From Synergistes jonesii (lineage in GTDB: Bacteria > Synergistota > Synergistia > Synergistales > Synergistaceae): 64,000 nt of DNA. Position numbers and translations under genes: made by a program. The stretch spans positions 62,015-126,014 of the forward strand of contig NZ_JMKI01000002.1 of the NCBI RefSeq assembly GCF_000712295.1. Reading direction: 5' to 3'. The number at the start of each line of letters is the position of its first letter. The first letter of the stretch is position 1. The notes beneath the pieces are model-generated. The model was not told the DNA's origin, searched no databases, and saw only the letters and a program-made list of their open reading frames with translations. Below are positions 8,127 through 64,000 of this stretch, one piece after another.

Positions 8127-8993
8127 ATGATAGACGATAAAATTACGGAAGCGATGCCCAACCTCACGAAAAAGCAGGCGATGCTCGGCAGGTATATCTG
8201 CGAAAACAAATACGCCGTCGCGCTGATGAACGCGCCGATGATCGCAAAAGAGGCTGGCGTCAGCGAGGCTACGCTGACGCGCTTTGTCTATTCTCTCGGA
8301 TACTCGAGCTTTTCAGAATTCCTCCTCGACTTGCGCCGCGAGACGCAGGAGACGAACGCCAACAACCCCTTCCGCCAGGAGCGGTACGGGCGCAAGGACA
8401 GGCCCGTCTATAAAAGAGTCTTCGACTTGGAAAGAAATTTAATGGACGAGACGCTGAACGCCATAAACCCGGAGGTTTTCGACAGATGCGTCGGTAAAAT
8501 CGTCGAGGCCGACAGGATTCTGCTTATCGGCTGCCCACCGCACAAGTTTTTGACGGAATATTTCGCGAATTTCCTGACGATTTTTCACGATAACGTGACA
8601 GTAGTGCAATCCCTTGATATGCCGTTCTTCGGCACGCTCGAATCGACGACGGAAAAAACCGTCGCCGTCGTCTTCAGCTATCCGAGATATCCGGTCGAAA
8701 CGCAGAAGATGGTGGAAACCGTCGCAAACCGCGGCCTTACCGTGATAGGTATAACGGACAGCAAATTCTCCCCCATCATCAGATACTGCACTCACTACCT
8801 GATAACGCCACAGCGCTATCTGATCGTCGTTGACCCCAACGCGGCGGCGATAACGCTGCTTCACGCGATGCTCGTGGCAATCTATCAGAAGAACGAGACA
8901 GAAATAAAGAAACGCCTCAAGAGATACGAGAAGACTATCCTAGCCACAGATATGTTCGTCTTCAAAGATTATAACTTTACAAGCAGACTTTAG
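8127..8993 (+). CDS. RpiR-family transcriptional regulator (HTH + SIS domain)
   Basis: 288 residues from the ATG at 8127, picked because GGGGG lies seven bases upstream, whereas an earlier in-frame ATG at 8082 has no ribosome site. Residues 1-75 form the RpiR helix-turn-helix (MIAKEAGVSEATLTRFVYSLGY). Residues of about 105-250 form a SIS domain of the kind that normally binds phosphosugars. It is divergent from the methyltransferase operon, whose promoter carries a palindrome, so it probably controls that operon. Control of an amine operon by a SIS-domain protein would be unusual because known effectors are sugar phosphates; the effector here is unknown. Confidence 0.88.
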   Translation: MIDDKITEAMPNLTKKQAMLGRYICENKYAVALMNAPMIAKEAGVSEATLTRFVYSLGYSSFSEFLLDLRRETQETNANNPFRQERYGRKDRPVYKRVFDLERNLMDETLNAINPEVFDRCVGKIVEADRILLIGCPPHKFLTEYFANFLTIFHDNVTVVQSLDMPFFGTLESTTEKTVAVVFSYPRYPVETQKMVETVANRGLTVIGITDSKFSPIIRYCTHYLITPQRYLIVVDPNAAAITLLHAMLVAIYQKNETEIKKRLKRYEKTILATDMFVFKDYNFTSRL

Positions 8994-9117
8994 CGCCGCG
9001 AAGACGAGTTGGAACAGGCGCGCACTATGTTATGCAATGCGCACCTATTGCTTCTTTTCTCTCAAGCGCAGCTTGCGCTACCGCTTCCTATCACGAGGAC
9101 GTTCGCCATAGCGCACC

Positions 9118-10110
9118 CTACCCTTCGTTCAGCATTTTTTCATAGAGAGTCTCGGTGCGGCCCTGTATACGCTCCATCGAAACGCCGAGCCGTTGCGCAT
9201 ACCACACGGCGCCGCCCGCCCCGACTCCTTCTTTTATGAAGCCCTTCTCATAATCGGCGAGCCCCTTGAAGCGCGAACGCGAGAAGTCGAGCGGCGCGGC
9301 GTACCAGCGCACGCCGATCTTCGCGGCGTATTCTTCAAGGCAGCTCGTCGGGTCGATGTGGACGTACTTGGTCGTCGCGACGAGCAGATCCCTTTTGACG
9401 CCCATGTCTCTCAGTATGGCGGCGACGGCCATCATCTGGGTCCCACCGGCGAGAGTGACCTCTACGCTCTCCGGCAGCGCGGCGGCGTATGCGGCTACCG
9501 CTATCTGCATCGGATCGCCGAGCTCAGCGGCCGCGGCGAGCCCATACCCTTTAAGCCCCCCCTCTTTAATGCCCAAGCGCTCCGCTGTGTCACGCCACAC
9601 GCTTTCTTTAAGAGCAAGGGGGTTCTCCGGTCCGGCGGAGGATACTGTCCCGTGGTATCCGAGCGCGCGCAGCACGAGCATCGCCGTCGTTGTGCCCCCC
9701 GGCACGGATTCCGCGAGCACCGCGCATTTATCTTTTTTATCGAATTTCGACGCGAGCTCCGCAGCTTCCTCGGCGATTTTCTCAAAGTCCGGCACGGCCG
9801 GTTCGAAACGCATGTCGCGGCCGACCGCTTCGCTTATCGTCACGTGCGGCGAAGCCGGGGCTATCGAAGTGCCGACGCGCACGGTCCCGGCCGCAAACCC
9901 GGCCTCAAGCAGAGAGGCGCGCGTGACGATAGCCGGCGAAGGGTGTCCGAAGGGGTCGAAGGGAAGCGACGCGGCGACCTTCGGCCTGTCGTAGAAGAGC
10001 ATGTCGGCGTCCGCCGGAGCGGTATAGGGCAGGACGTCGACGTTCGCGCCCGCCGCCGAAAGCCCGGGTATTCTCGCAAGTTCTGTCTCAGCGATAAATA
10101 ATTGAAACAT
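9118..10110 (-). CDS. CobT-like nicotinate-nucleotide phosphoribosyltransferase family protein (UPF0284/TIGR00303 type)
   Basis: 330 residues resembling the archaeal-type branch of nicotinate-nucleotide-dimethylbenzimidazole phosphoribosyltransferase. Diagnostic stretches are the glycine/threonine-rich ESVPGGTTTAMLVLRALGY near residue 145 and LAGGTQMMAVAAI near 230. True CobT makes the alpha-ribazole phosphate of the lower cobalamin loop; this branch is usually annotated only as CobT-like. A corrinoid role fits the adjacent corrinoid-dependent operon, though the gene stands alone and on the opposite strand from rpiR. GGGGG lies some 13 nt before the start. No membrane segments are seen. Confidence 0.75.
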   Translation of the reverse strand: MFQLFIAETELARIPGLSAAGANVDVLPYTAPADADMLFYDRPKVAASLPFDPFGHPSPAIVTRASLLEAGFAAGTVRVGTSIAPASPHVTISEAVGRDMRFEPAVPDFEKIAEEAAELASKFDKKDKCAVLAESVPGGTTTAMLVLRALGYHGTVSSAGPENPLALKESVWRDTAERLGIKEGGLKGYGLAAAAELGDPMQIAVAAYAAALPESVEVTLAGGTQMMAVAAILRDMGVKRDLLVATTKYVHIDPTSCLEEYAAKIGVRWYAAPLDFSRSRFKGLADYEKGFIKEGVGAGGAVWYAQRLGVSMERIQGRTETLYEKMLNEG

Positions 10111-56005: not shown

Positions 56006-58366
56006 TCAGAACGTTTCCTGCGCGTTCCTGGCTATTATTTCCTCCTGCTGGTAGTTGTCCAGGTCTACGAAGTAGTCGCTGTATCCGGCGACGCGGACGA
56101 GGAGACCGCGGTAATCCTCCGGATGCGCCTGCGCGTCGCGCAGTGTCGCTTCGTCTACTACGTTGAACTGAATATGGTGCCCGCCGAGCTTGAAGTAGGA
56201 GCGGATGAGGTTCTTGACCCCCTCGATGCCCTCTTCGCCGGCGAGGACGGAGGGCAGGAAGCGCTGGTTGAGAAGCGTTCCGCCCGTCTTGACCTGGTCG
56301 AGCTTCGCAAGCGACTTGACGACCGCCGTCGGGCCGTGGCGGTCCGCGCCGTGGCTCGGCGACGTGCCGTCGGATTCCGGCATTCCGCTGAAGCGTCCGT
56401 TCGGCGTCGCTCCGAGCTTCTGCCCGAAGTAGTTGTGGCAAGTCGTGCTGAGGCCGTTCAGATGGTATGTCGGGCCGAGTATGCTGTTCCTGCCGTCGAT
56501 GGTCTCAAAGAGGCTGTCGAACACCTTTCTCGTGATATTGTCGGCGTAATCGTCGTCGTTGCCGAAGAAGGGCGTCTTGTTCCACATCGTGAGGCGCATC
56601 TCCTCGTAGCCTTCCCAGTTGGCTTTCAGCGCGTCGACGACCTGCTGCAGCGTGTATCTGCATTCCTCGTAGACGTGCTTCTTGAGCGCGGAGAGGCTGT
56701 CGGTGACCGTGCCGAAGCCGCAGCACTGGATGTAGTCGCTGTTGTAGCGCGGCCCGCCGTTGTAGTAGTCTTTGCCCTTCTCGATGCAGTCACGTACGAC
56801 GCAGGAGAGGTACGGCGCCGCCATATGCTGCACGTACTGCGAGCGCAGGTAGTTGTCGACGCCGATCTTCGTGTCGACAGCGTGGCGGATCTGTTTCTCG
56901 AAAGCCGCGTAGAGGTCGTCGAAGGTCTTGAACTCCGAAAGTTCGCCGCTCTTGATGCTGACCTGTTCGCCGGTCAGCATGTCGACGCCGTTGGTCAGCG
57001 CGTATTCAAGGAGCTTCGGAACGTTGAGGTAGCCGTGCAGCAGGTAGGCCTCTTTGCCGGAGCATCCGGTCTCGACGCAGCCGCTGACGCCCCCTTCGCG
57101 CGCGTCTTCGAGCGCCTTGCCGACGCGCATCTGTTCCTGTATGACGAGGTCGCAGTTGAACATCGACGGGTAGCCCATGCCGTTGCGGAAGACGCGGGCC
57201 GCGGCGCGGATTACATTGTCGGGCGTGCGCTCGCTGACTTGGATGTTGCACTGCGGCTGAAGCAGGCGAAGCTCGTCGAGTATCTCAAGGATGATGTAGG
57301 TGATCTCGCTGGAGCCGTCGGAGCCGTCCCTCTTGAGGCCGCCGAGGTTGATGTTGGTGAAGTCGTTGTAGGTGCCGCTTTCCTTCGCCGTCACTCCGAC
57401 CTTCGGGGGCGCCGGCGTGTTATTCACCTTGATCCAGAAGCAGGAGAGAAGCTCCTTCGCCTTGTCGCGCGTAAGCGTTCCGTCGGCGAGCCCCTTCTCA
57501 TAGAAGGGGGCGAGATGCTGGTCGAGATGCCCCGGGCTCATGGCGTCCCAGCCGTTGAGCTCTGTGATGGTCCCGAGGTGTACGAACCAGTACATCTGTA
57601 TGGCTTCCCAGAAGCTGCGAGGAGCGTGCGCCGGAACGCGGCGGCAGACTTCGGCTATCTGCAGGAGCTCGGCCTTGCGCGTCTCGTCCCTCTCTTCGGC
57701 GGCCATCTTCTCTGCGAGGGCGGCGTGGCGCTCGGCGAAGATGATGACGGCGTCGCAGGAGATATCCATGCCCTGAAGCTCTTCGTCCTTCGACGTCGCT
57801 TCCGGGTCGTTGATGAAGTCGAGCTTCGCGCGGGCTTCCGCGATCTCTTTCTTCATATCGAGCGCGCCGTGCTGATAGATGTAGCCGTCCAGCGAGGTGT
57901 GGCCAAGAGCGCGCTGCTCGCCGAATTCCGTGAAGGTGCCGGCCTTGTAGAGCAGGTTCCACGCTTCGGGCATGCGCTCAAAGAGGCGGTCCCTCATGCA
58001 GCGGCCGCGCCAGTAGGGTTCGACGAATTTTTCATAGGCGTCCATATCCTTCGGGTCCACCGTGTAGTTCTGCTGCTCGCGCGTCGTGAGTATCTCAAAG
58101 TCCTGGCGCGTGTGGCAGGTGAGCTCGGGGAAAGTCGAAACGGCCTTCGGCTTCGGGCCGCGCTCTCCTACGATAAGTTCGTCGGGGCCGATGTAGATCT
58201 CTTTTTTCTCGCAGAGGTTCTTGAAGTTCGCAGCGCGAAGCACGGGCATAGGCATCTTGCCCTCGTGTTCACGGTAGAACTCCGTTTCGAGCAGACCTCT
58301 TTCGATGCTGATCGTCGCGTGTGTGTTGAAGCTTGCGTCGCGGAGCCGTTTGACTCTTTCGTTCAT
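56006..58366 (-). CDS. Glycyl-radical enzyme, HypD (4-hydroxyproline dehydratase)-like
   Basis: 786 residues, the full length of HypD. GVSGCVETGCSGKEAYLLHGY contains the active-site Cys430 and catalytic Glu432; VRVAGYSDYF carries the radical-bearing glycine (Gly761). The overall sequence, from ISIERGLLETEFY to the C-terminal EEIIARNAQETF, resembles trans-4-hydroxyproline dehydratase more than pyruvate formate-lyase or choline TMA-lyase. From memory the Clostridioides enzyme has Phe after GC and Thr at the HGY position, so Ser and His here may alter the substrate. The pyrroline-5-carboxylate reductase gene often linked to hypD is absent. The activase and a GntR regulator are upstream in the same operon. 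Confidence 0.82.
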   Translation of the reverse strand: MNERVKRLRDASFNTHATISIERGLLETEFYREHEGKMPMPVLRAANFKNLCEKKEIYIGPDELIVGERGPKPKAVSTFPELTCHTRQDFEILTTREQQNYTVDPKDMDAYEKFVEPYWRGRCMRDRLFERMPEAWNLLYKAGTFTEFGEQRALGHTSLDGYIYQHGALDMKKEIAEARAKLDFINDPEATSKDEELQGMDISCDAVIIFAERHAALAEKMAAEERDETRKAELLQIAEVCRRVPAHAPRSFWEAIQMYWFVHLGTITELNGWDAMSPGHLDQHLAPFYEKGLADGTLTRDKAKELLSCFWIKVNNTPAPPKVGVTAKESGTYNDFTNINLGGLKRDGSDGSSEITYIILEILDELRLLQPQCNIQVSERTPDNVIRAAARVFRNGMGYPSMFNCDLVIQEQMRVGKALEDAREGGVSGCVETGCSGKEAYLLHGYLNVPKLLEYALTNGVDMLTGEQVSIKSGELSEFKTFDDLYAAFEKQIRHAVDTKIGVDNYLRSQYVQHMAAPYLSCVVRDCIEKGKDYYNGGPRYNSDYIQCCGFGTVTDSLSALKKHVYEECRYTLQQVVDALKANWEGYEEMRLTMWNKTPFFGNDDDYADNITRKVFDSLFETIDGRNSILGPTYHLNGLSTTCHNYFGQKLGATPNGRFSGMPESDGTSPSHGADRHGPTAVVKSLAKLDQVKTGGTLLNQRFLPSVLAGEEGIEGVKNLIRSYFKLGGHHIQFNVVDEATLRDAQAHPEDYRGLLVRVAGYSDYFVDLDNYQQEEIIARNAQETF

Positions 58367-58449
58367 AAAAATTACCTCCCTTGTTTGACATCAATAAGAC
58401 CGATTGCCGACTGCCCTCTTTATCCTGCGGGCCGCGCCCGCCGCGGCGG

Positions 58450-59355
58450 TCAACCGCCGATGTGCACCTTTAGTCCGAAGCTTTCGAGTATCCCCGCCGC
58501 GTGATGGGTCTGGGCGTCCGTCGGCGGCAGCAGGTCGTTCAGCCTGTAATCCATGTGCCAACGGTCGTGCTTGCCCTTCGCCACCGTGTGGTAAGGCAGG
58601 ATGTTGACGCCGACCACTCCTTTCAGCCGCGAGACGAAGCTGCCCGTCGCCTTAATGTTTTCGTCGCCGCTGTTCAGCCCCGGCATGAAGGGGACGCGGA
58701 CGTTTATTTTCGCGCCGGCCTCGGATATCGCAACCAGATTTTCAAGTATCACCGCGTTGTCGACGCCGGTAAATTCTTTATGCCTGCCCGGATCCATATG
58801 TTTTATATCGTAGAGAAAGATATCCGCGCGCTTCGCCGTTTCGAGGATCACGCTCTTCCCCGCGAAGCCGCTCGTGTCTATCGCGCGATGATAGCCGACC
58901 CTGCCACACGCGTCAAGCGCTTCGATCAGAAATTCCGGCTGCATCAGCGGCTCGCCTCCGGAGAAGGTTACGCCGCCTCCTTCGCGGAAGAATATTTCGT
59001 CCTTTGCAAGCTGCGGCATCAGCTCGTCGACCGTACAGGGACGACCGCAGAGCTCACGGGCTTCCGCGGGGCACGCGTCGCAGCACGCACCGCAGCCGAC
59101 GCAGAGCCCCTCGTCGGTAACGAGGGCGCCGTTTCGAACGGAAACGGCGTGCCGGGGACAGGCCTTGACGCAGGAACCGCACGCGATACATTTTTCGTCG
59201 CGGAAGAGCAGAGCGGGGGCGGCAGACCGGCTCTCGGGATTATGGCACCACCAGCACGACAGCGGGCAGCCTTTGAAGTGCACCGTAGTGCGCGTCCCTG
59301 GGCCGTCGTGAATGGAATATCTCTTGATATCGAAGATAATCCCCGGTTTACTCAA
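58450..59355 (-). CDS. Glycyl-radical enzyme activating enzyme (radical SAM)
   Basis: 301 residues from a TTG start preceded by GGGGGAAAAAAAG, overlapping the regulator stop. GPGTRTTVHFKGCPLSCWWCHNPES has the CxxxCxxC radical-SAM cluster ligands. Residues 45-115 insert two ferredoxin-type 4Fe-4S motifs (CIACGSCVKACPRH and CVGCGACCDACPAE), as in HypE- and PflD-type activases. GVTFSGGEPLMQPEF is the SAM-binding GGE motif. It installs the glycyl radical in the enzyme encoded 83 nt downstream. Confidence 0.94.
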   Translation of the reverse strand: MSKPGIIFDIKRYSIHDGPGTRTTVHFKGCPLSCWWCHNPESRSAAPALLFRDEKCIACGSCVKACPRHAVSVRNGALVTDEGLCVGCGACCDACPAEARELCGRPCTVDELMPQLAKDEIFFREGGGVTFSGGEPLMQPEFLIEALDACGRVGYHRAIDTSGFAGKSVILETAKRADIFLYDIKHMDPGRHKEFTGVDNAVILENLVAISEAGAKINVRVPFMPGLNSGDENIKATGSFVSRLKGVVGVNILPYHTVAKGKHDRWHMDYRLNDLLPPTDAQTHHAAGILESFGLKVHIGG

Positions 59356-62858: not shown

Positions 62859-63023
62859 CGCGCGAAAGTATTCCTTTCTTTTAAAAATTTATGAGAGATA
62901 ATTCCATATTTTTTAAAACAGATATTCTATCCGCACCATATAATGATGCCCTTTTGTGCCAATCGTATTAATAAACGTTAGAACAGTAGGGTAAAAATCG
63001 GTAAATTCAAACATTACAAATGT
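62859..63023. other. Intergenic AT-rich stretch
   Basis: About 165 nt between the MGMT-like gene and the next promoter. I see no gene, terminator or repeat of note in it. Confidence 0.4.
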
Positions 63024-63052
63024 TTGACAGCTCAGAAAAATGATGTTATCAT
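63024..63052 (+). promoter_or_regulatory. Promoter of the leader peptide and oxoacid oxidoreductase operon
   Basis: TTGACA (63024-63029) is a perfect -35 box and TATCAT (63047-63052) a five-of-six -10 box at 17-nt spacing. The transcript would begin near 63059, about 24 nt before the leader-peptide ATG. Confidence 0.75.
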
Positions 63053-63082
63053 TCCCGCAATCTTGAAGAAGGAGGAAGCGTT

Positions 63083-63160
63083 ATGTTAAAGACTTTAAAC
63101 AGCAACAACATAATAATTATAATTATTAACGCGGCTCCTCCTCGCAGGATCGGCGTTTAG
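63083..63160 (+). CDS. Isoleucine-rich leader peptide (transcription attenuator)
   Basis: 25 codons with AAGGAGGAAGCG correctly placed before the ATG. Codons 10-15 are ATA ATA ATT ATA ATT ATT, six isoleucines in a row (NNIIIIIIN), and another Ile is the third residue from the end. The frame ends at TAG (63158-63160), 22 nt before a strong terminator. The arrangement equals that of ilv and other amino-acid biosynthetic leaders, where a ribosome stalled on uncharged-tRNA codons prevents termination. The regulated operon encodes a 2-oxoacid:ferredoxin oxidoreductase. Confidence 0.8.
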   Translation: MLKTLNSNNIIIIIINAAPPRRIGV

Positions 63161-63187
63161 CGCCGTTTGTACAAGCGAGTAAGGGGC
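63135..63187 (+). promoter_or_regulatory. Possible antiterminator pairing in the attenuator
   Basis: CTCGC (63141-63145) pairs with GCGAG (63175-63179), and CTCCT (63135-63139) with AGGGG (63182-63186) including one wobble. This would sequester the 5' arm of the terminator. A ribosome at the leader stop codon would cover the left segment, whereas one stalled on the Ile codons would leave it free. Confidence 0.5.
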
Positions 63188-63215
63188 CCTTTCAAATTGA
63201 AAGGGCCCCTTTTTA
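63182..63215 (+). terminator. Attenuator terminator before the oxoacid oxidoreductase operon
   Basis: AGGGGCCCTTTC and GAAAGGGCCCCT are perfect 12-base arms around AAATT, followed by a U-run. It lies between the leader peptide and the first structural gene. Confidence 0.9.
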
Positions 63216-63259
63216 TATCAAAATTTAAAAAAGGCTTTTAAACTTTAGGAGGAATTGCA

Positions 63260-63832
63260 ATGAACAAGACGGTAGAAGTAAGATGGCACGGACGCGGCGG
63301 ACAGGGCGCGAAGAGCGCCTCGGCGGTACTCGCCGAGGTTTTGTTCGAAGAGGGAAAGTACGTACAGGCATTCCCGGAATACGGTGCAGAGCGCCAGGGC
63401 GCGCCGATCCGCGCATACAATAGGGTTTCCGACGCTCCGATACGCCGCCGCTGCGGCGTGCAGAACCCGAATATCGTCGTCGTTGTCGATCCGACGATGG
63501 TCGAGAGCGCCAACCCAACGGAAGGCTCGGCCGAAGACGCACTCTATATAGTCAACAGCGGCGAAAACGCGAAGAAGCTCCGCAGCCGCCTCGGCGTCAC
63601 CTCGAAGGCGCGCGTACTCGTGGTGAACGCTACGAAGATAACTCTCGAAGAACTCGGCCAGAACAGGCCGAATGCCCCGATCTTGGGCGCCCTTTCGAAC
63701 GTTTTCACGGAGGTCCCCGTGGAGGCCTTCGTAAACCATTTTACAAACAAAATGAAAACGCTCCCCGCAAAGACGCTCGAAGCAAACCGCAGAGCGATAC
63801 TCCGCGGACGCGACGAGGCCGTCTTCGCATGA
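63260..63832 (+). CDS. 2-oxoacid:ferredoxin oxidoreductase gamma subunit (POR/VOR type)
   Basis: 190 residues. VEVRWHGRGGQGAKSASAVLAEVLFEEGKYVQAFPEYGAERQGAPIRAYNRVSD is the near-invariant N-terminus of the gamma subunit. It belongs to four-subunit oxidoreductases that interconvert pyruvate or branched-chain 2-oxoacids with acyl-CoA using ferredoxin. The delta subunit gene overlaps its stop by an ATGA. Whether the enzyme is a pyruvate or 2-oxoisovalerate type cannot be told from this subunit; the isoleucine leader upstream favours a branched-chain oxoacid. TAGGAGGAATTGCA is the ribosome site. Confidence 0.92.
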   Translation: MNKTVEVRWHGRGGQGAKSASAVLAEVLFEEGKYVQAFPEYGAERQGAPIRAYNRVSDAPIRRRCGVQNPNIVVVVDPTMVESANPTEGSAEDALYIVNSGENAKKLRSRLGVTSKARVLVVNATKITLEELGQNRPNAPILGALSNVFTEVPVEAFVNHFTNKMKTLPAKTLEANRRAILRGRDEAVFA

Positions 63833-64000
63833 GCAAACCACAAAGTTGGCAGGAGGTCCCGCCGGGCACCGTGGCCTTCGGGGCTTCCGCCCTCAAGGTT
63901 CAGACCGGGCTGTGGCGCTCCTCGCGCCCGGTAGTAGACGCCGCGAAATGCGTCTCCTGCCTCAAATGCTGGATTCAATGCCCCGACGACTCGATAGCAC
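63829..64000 (+). CDS. 2-oxoacid:ferredoxin oxidoreductase delta (4Fe-4S) subunit, partial
   Basis: 57 codons are visible before the window ends, starting at the ATG that overlaps the gamma-subunit stop. VVDAAKCVSCLKCWIQCPDDSIA is the first ferredoxin-type CxxCxxCxxxCP motif of the delta subunit. The second cluster and the alpha and beta genes should follow outside the window. Confidence 0.9.
   Translation, partial: MSKPQSWQEVPPGTVAFGASALKVQTGLWRSSRPVVDAAKCVSCLKCWIQCPDDSIA

Follow-up and report, generated by a model that had tools for sequence, protein, structure and literature searches.

The E. coli leaders of ilvGMEDA (ilvL), ivbL, leu, his and trp encode a peptide with many residues of the regulated amino acid, followed by competing antiterminator and terminator structures, and their stop codon is placed so that a terminating ribosome covers the antiterminator arm. 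These traits recur at the locus described here. In Corynebacterium, the ilvB motif or ilvB-II leader combines an upstream open reading frame (uORF) rich in Ile, Leu and Val codons with a terminator and an antiterminator (PMC11109978, PMC10272879). In addition, studies cited in PMC7476758 (Buchanan 1969, Monticello 1984, Eikmanns 1983) are the source for a 2-oxobutyrate synthase activity of anaerobes, in which propionyl-CoA, CO2 and reduced ferredoxin yield 2-oxobutyrate for isoleucine synthesis.

We analysed a stretch of 64,000 nt from Synergistes jonesii (the window, to which unprefixed positions refer), at whose 3′ end a four-subunit 2-oxoacid:ferredoxin oxidoreductase (por-like) operon begins. 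Upstream of its first gene we found a predicted leader frame with tandem Ile codons, a terminator and, downstream of the Ile codons, an antiterminator that excludes the terminator. We read this arrangement, with a probability of roughly 0.8, as a classical ribosome-mediated, Ile-specific transcription attenuator of the operon. The locus comprises the following features:

63024–63052, plus strand: sigma-70-type promoter, TTGACA-17-TATCAT, with an extended −10 (TG before the −10)
63067–63083, plus strand: segment 1, the Shine–Dalgarno (SD) region, which can pair with 63127–63143, closing the leader SD; in the MFE fold
63069–63076, plus strand: SD of the leader frame, AAGGAGGA; a purine-rich SD is present in aligned orthologs
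63083–63160, plus strand: open reading frame of the leader peptide MLKTLNSNNIIIIIINAAPPRRIGV, 25 codons and a stop; a similar peptide occurs in 23 of 24 family orthologs
63110–63127, plus strand: regulatory codons ATA ATA ATT ATA ATT ATT, six consecutive Ile
63133–63145, plus strand: segment 2, antiterminator 5′ arm, GGCUCCU-C-CUCGC; pairs kept with compensatory changes
63151–63165, plus strand: small hairpin whose loop holds the leader stop codon 63158–63160; 23 sequences with 100% paired cells, G-U being the only changes
63175–63188, plus strand: segment 3, antiterminator 3′ arm, GCGAG-UA-AGGGGCC, pairing with segment 2 and overlapping the terminator 5′ arm
63181–63214, plus strand: intrinsic terminator (segments 3:4) with U-run; hairpin in 23 of 23 leader-bearing orthologs
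63260–63832, plus strand: porG/porC-like gene, gamma subunit of 2-oxoacid:acceptor oxidoreductase (TIGR02175, 180 bits, cut-off 81)
63829–64000, plus strand: start of a porD-like gene, delta, ferredoxin-like subunit (TIGR02179, 87 bits, cut-off 60)
L003:2844–5293: porA-like and porB-like genes, the continuation of the operon beyond the window; alpha and beta score best against the PorA/PorB pyruvate synthase models

The promoter matches the consensus hexamers at 11 of 12 positions and has an extended −10, in line with the consensus promoter of the original prediction, and the predicted 25-codon frame with its ribosome site and six consecutive Ile codons was likewise recovered. The terminator is perfect and followed by T5, as had been claimed, but is longer than the 12 bp first given, its arms (63181–63195 and 63197–63211) being 15 nt each and 100% complementary; the first structural gene starts 3′ of it, at 63260. 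The competing antiterminator arms also stood, their extent being slightly wider than the proposed 63135–63145 and 63175–63186: the best pairing joins 63133–63139 and 63141–63145 with 63175–63179 and 63182–63188. Overlapping the −35 hexamer, we further observed a 9-bp perfect inverted repeat (TCAAACATT-ACA-AATGTTTGA, window 63007–63027), and a similar repeat is visible in the related locus L005; it is possibly an operator that acts besides the attenuator. CodY boxes have been described near ilv genes (PMC9318921), and CodY possibly has a role at the promoter of the por-like operon.

Predicted duplex energies were −18.4 kcal/mol for segments 1:2, −21.5 kcal/mol for 2:3 and −27.3 kcal/mol for 3:4. 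Shuffled sequences gave −14.9 ± 2.8 kcal/mol for the antiterminator, with 21 of 1000 as good as the real one, and folding of the whole leader had z = −5.45. With the RNA free from 63123–63132 onward, as it would be with a ribosome on the Ile codons, the predicted fold was the antiterminator, which agrees with the earlier claim that a stalled ribosome leaves it free; with the RNA free from 63172, corresponding to a ribosome that has reached the stop codon, the terminator alone remained. The SD-region pairing (63067–63083) and the stop-codon hairpin (63151–63165) had no counterpart in the original prediction. The 1:2 pairing is present in orthologs, with conservation no better than modest, and its support is weak: segment 2 looks like an anti-SD, so that many SDs would be able to pair with it.

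When Ile-tRNA is ample, the ribosome would reach the stop codon and cover segment 2, so that the terminator forms. When Ile-tRNA is scarce, it would stall on 63110–63127, segment 2 would pair with segment 3, and the terminator would be blocked, allowing the por-like genes to be transcribed. Without translation of the leader, segment 2 could pair with the leader SD region, an arrangement expected to favour termination. We infer these dynamics, as well as a carboxylating direction of the por-like enzyme for isoleucine synthesis.

The original prediction had asked for an alignment of the upstream regions of orthologous operons. We searched for the gamma subunit in 60 relatives and compared the regions upstream of 24 orthologs (71–100% identity), all from Synergistaceae, the family to which the named relatives in the species collection belong (e.g. 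Candidatus Caccocola faecipullorum). The Ile-rich frame, the terminator and the leader layout as a whole were kept in 23 of the 24; in the sole family ortholog lacking the leader (L027 of G035, upstream of the match at 345) the promoter is retained and the leader region apparently deleted. No leader was present upstream of six homologs outside Synergistaceae (L028–L033). All 23 leader-bearing orthologs have an exact TTGACA with a 17-nt spacer and a run of 5–6 Ile codons, inside which only ATA, ATT and ATC interchange, all of them synonymous. The 11 pairs (5 + 6) of the antiterminator were complete in 20 of these 23 and numbered 10 in the other three, with compensatory changes to CUCGU:ACGAG in four (L007, L008, L025, L026) and to CUCUC:GAGAG in one (L024). 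For the upper antiterminator stem and the stop-codon hairpin, 98.3% of cells were paired, compared with 20–54% in slid controls, and none of 500 shuffles reached their covariation score; MAFFT columns near the terminator were structure-inconsistent, so that the automated count refers to the upper antiterminator stem and the remaining antiterminator pairs come from anchored pairing. An Rfam search of the leader returned no family above its gathering score, the best weak matches including Thr_leader (18.7 versus 55 bits). The conserved Ile codons, the covariation of the antiterminator and the similar architecture before ilv and threonine-dehydratase-like genes (see below) strongly support the attenuator that had been proposed.

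The genes of the operon are ordered gamma-delta-alpha-beta (L003:2275–5293), and by inspection the operon appears to end at an inverted repeat and T-run after the beta gene; no acyl-CoA ligase was seen in it. Its four subunits match those of pyruvate synthase PorGDAB, from which it differs in its predicted Ile control and in scoring below the NCBIfam equivalog cut-offs for pyruvate synthase (PorA 490.7/550, PorB 345.5/405, PorC 179.4/270). The gamma and delta subunits pass the subfamily cut-offs PorC_KorC and PorD_KorD (pyruvate/2-ketoisovalerate), the enzyme scores higher against pyruvate synthase models than against ketoisovalerate models, and among solved structures the closest is 9bt4, a pyruvate:ferredoxin oxidoreductase. 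Since a single-chain pyruvate:ferredoxin oxidoreductase (1672 bits) is encoded separately in the genome, the por-like enzyme would be free for another role. Elsewhere in the window (56006–59355, minus strand), we recognised from the ORF sequence a glycyl-radical-enzyme-like gene of 786 aa and, upstream of it, a radical-SAM activase-like gene of 301 aa.

Related leaders were found across the phylum. A covariance model of the core (R1), run over 188 Synergistota genomes, matched 37, 27 of which belong to Synergistaceae. In two other families (f5 and f6), Ile3–Ile4 leaders (AIIIITSAAPPRRTGA, AIIIIANAAPPRGNGA) stand directly before a serine/threonine-dehydratase-like gene, whose product is likely a 2-oxobutyrate-forming enzyme judging by its resemblance to threonine dehydratase; in another (f10), Phe-run leaders (FFFFTNVGPARRIDG) precede a PaaK-like gene, which scores 498–509 bits against phenylacetate-CoA ligase PaaK and so stays below the cut-off of 646. 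At L067:9896–10010 and 8985–9731 (both minus strand), G040 carries a second Ile leader copy; behind it come the start of the dehydratase gene, in truncated form, and a putative gene resembling AzlC (branched-chain amino-acid export). A broader model (R2) matched 116 of the 188 genomes, and we inspected 40 of these, recognising downstream genes by how their sequences begin, with profiles for part of them and several leaders left without an assigned gene. Among these 40 leaders, those with aromatic runs (FFFF, RFFF, YYF, YYY, FYFYYF) lie a few tens of nucleotides upstream of PaaK-like genes, and those with Val, Leu and Ile codons precede ilv genes; wherever the gene could be named, the residue of the run follows the amino acid expected of it.

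In the S. jonesii genome itself, R2 identified four leaders, belonging to the por-like operon, ilvHCB, a PaaK-like gene and a MetQ-like gene. The ilvHCB leader (MRRNDFISNAAKIVVVVRIISSGLPEVAGA; L078:7679–7821, C10) has Val4 and Ile3 and a terminator in a similar layout, with a similar one in G016. The PaaK-like gene is preceded by MATADTLSSRDIYARSFSFTGAGPLQGICAENA (L084:1093–1194), and a Met-rich leader, MKSIHGNASIMCMMMRSCGGSSPQRSGA, with a terminator (L085, C36:31278–31385, minus strand) precedes a putative MetQ-type methionine-binding lipoprotein gene, so named from its sequence. Leaders with Phe or Tyr runs and terminators directly before PaaK-like genes, mostly in apparent single-gene units, occur across Synergistota (L069, L070, L092, L095, L103, L105–L109, L111, L115, L119, L120, L122, L124, L125, and L084 in S. 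jonesii).

Judged by sequence, the Synergistota leaders are one architecture, with predicted regulatory codons that match the downstream gene. Because these codons match the gene behind the leader wherever that gene could be named, the predicted Ile-specific anabolic control of the por-like operon is well supported. It suggests that a ferredoxin enzyme usually deemed catabolic may be used in reverse, to make isoleucine from CO2 and a short acid. The PaaK-like ligases would be an activation step, which suggests that Phe and Tyr may be made from arylacetates by carboxylation. More tentatively, with odds a little short of even, a modular cassette may control amino-acid synthesis by reductive carboxylation, with a 2-oxobutyrate synthase of four subunits dedicated to Ile and arylacetate-CoA ligases feeding arylpyruvate for Phe or Tyr, alongside ilv and Met-related genes.

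Which 2-oxo acid the por-like enzyme would make bears on the rest of the isoleucine pathway. We rejected the idea that the leader operon replaces a missing pathway, as the S. jonesii genome has ilvH, ilvC, ilvB and ilvD as well as a full IlvA (627 bits) without such a leader; with its own IlvA present, the por-like enzyme is not the only possible source of 2-oxobutyrate. We also rejected the idea that IlvA (THD1) and the leader-por operon exclude each other: many genera have both, and THD1 is missing from only some of the leader genera. Among the leader-bearing genomes, 21 of 23 have ilvC and only G013 and G031 lack ilvD, and none of 61 genomes had a citramalate synthase over the cut-off. In two genomes (G012, G028) that have the leader, the por-like operon and ilvC, there was no good match to threonine dehydratase, a finding consistent with supply by the por-like enzyme. 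In several f1 genomes ilvC is present and both the por-like operon and IlvA are missing; other routes therefore exist. In S. jonesii and the close genera G001, G005, G014, G016, G021, G022, G029 and G030, ilvC has no LeuA-like enzyme next to it, in contrast to other genera of Synergistaceae.

Sequence alone does not separate pyruvate, 2-oxobutyrate and branched substrates. The leader on ilvHCB contains Val and Ile codons and that on the por-like operon Ile codons only, and therefore the por product would be needed for Ile and not for Val. We consider carboxylation of propionyl-CoA to 2-oxobutyrate, feeding IlvB, IlvC and IlvD, to be the most likely reaction, at about even odds, because ilvC and ilvD are kept, the ilvHCB leader has both Val and Ile codons, and Ile-only leaders elsewhere precede the dehydratase-like gene. 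Synthesis of pyruvate is a less likely role, because Val would then share the control.

The attenuator might instead serve an enzyme that carboxylates 2-methylbutyryl-CoA to 3-methyl-2-oxopentanoate, by-passing acetohydroxyacid synthase. A route from 2-methylbutyrate to isoleucine is known from rumen anaerobes and methanogens, the Ile-only codons would fit this reaction equally, and the enzyme class includes ketoisovalerate oxidoreductases. We nevertheless regard it as unlikely, and less likely than carboxylation of propionyl-CoA, given the retention of ilvC and ilvD in nearly all leader genomes, the control of ilvHCB itself by Val and Ile, the higher scores against pyruvate synthase models than against ketoisovalerate models and the operon without a visible acyl-CoA ligase. 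The original prediction had favoured such a branched acyl-CoA, converted to 2-oxo-3-methylvalerate; its proposal that the enzyme serves isoleucine synthesis is strongly supported, whereas for the substrate the ilv genes, the Val + Ile leader and the pyruvate synthase scores make its choice possible and not the best supported. Less probable still is a catabolic operon for the oxidation of 2-oxo acids derived from Ile, Val or Thr, tuned by the leader in another way or with reversed logic. Synergistota ferment amino acids, most enzymes of the class are annotated as oxidative and the reaction is reversible, but the anatomy of the leader would give induction on Ile shortage, and a similar architecture guards the clearly biosynthetic ilvH, ilvC and ilvB of S. 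jonesii. It is very improbable that the peptide acts as a TnaC-like, ligand-sensing arrest peptide and not as a starvation sensor: its tail NAAPPRRIG is strongly conserved, yet residues within it vary (PP/PS, RR/RG, I/N/D) while the RNA pairing they encode is kept with compensatory changes, and in relatives the Ile run gives way to Phe, Tyr, Val/Leu or Met, in keeping with the gene that follows. Finally, a chance Ile run in an AT-rich, partly palindromic 5′ UTR, next to a terminator of another unit, can be dismissed, as 63110–63127 is the only run of at least six Ile in the six frames of the 64-kb window, none of 60 first-order Markov simulations of the window contained one, and conservation with synonymous changes in 23 genomes excludes it.

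Leader codons tell which amino acid a gene serves. Here, the Ile codons suggest an anabolic role, specific to Ile, for a class of enzymes that annotations usually label catabolic, and they make the por-like operon a candidate gene set for 2-oxobutyrate synthase. If the modular-cassette reading is true, this half-century-old activity would be tied to a regulated gene set. The aromatic leaders before phenylacetate-CoA ligases allow an analogous argument for Phe and Tyr. The cassette would thus directly map unusual amino-acid routes in a phylum that has been little studied and some of whose members live in the gut.

We found no leader of this kind for 2-oxoacid:ferredoxin oxidoreductases in the main texts of open PMC papers, in agreement with the original prediction, and no gene under Ile attenuation is linked there to 2-oxobutyrate synthase. 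Nor did we find such a leader in the main text of Stav et al. 2019, which analysed Thermovirga lienii. The anaerobe 2-oxobutyrate synthase is known as a biochemical activity, and the reaction proposed here, which is predicted from genes, is alike. The Corynebacterium ilvB leader shares the uORF, terminator and antiterminator and differs in phylum, gene and sequence, as well as in being multivalent where the S. jonesii leader has Ile only. Compared with the E. coli leaders, the S. jonesii element differs in its ferredoxin-dependent 2-oxoacid oxidoreductase target, its restriction to Ile and the inclusion of the leader SD in segment 1, and the Synergistota set in combining, across one phylum, a conserved GCGGCTCC core with regulatory codons that can be exchanged. 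The mechanism is thus a known one, whereas its target, the phylum-wide leader family and the metabolic implication are, as far as we could find, new.
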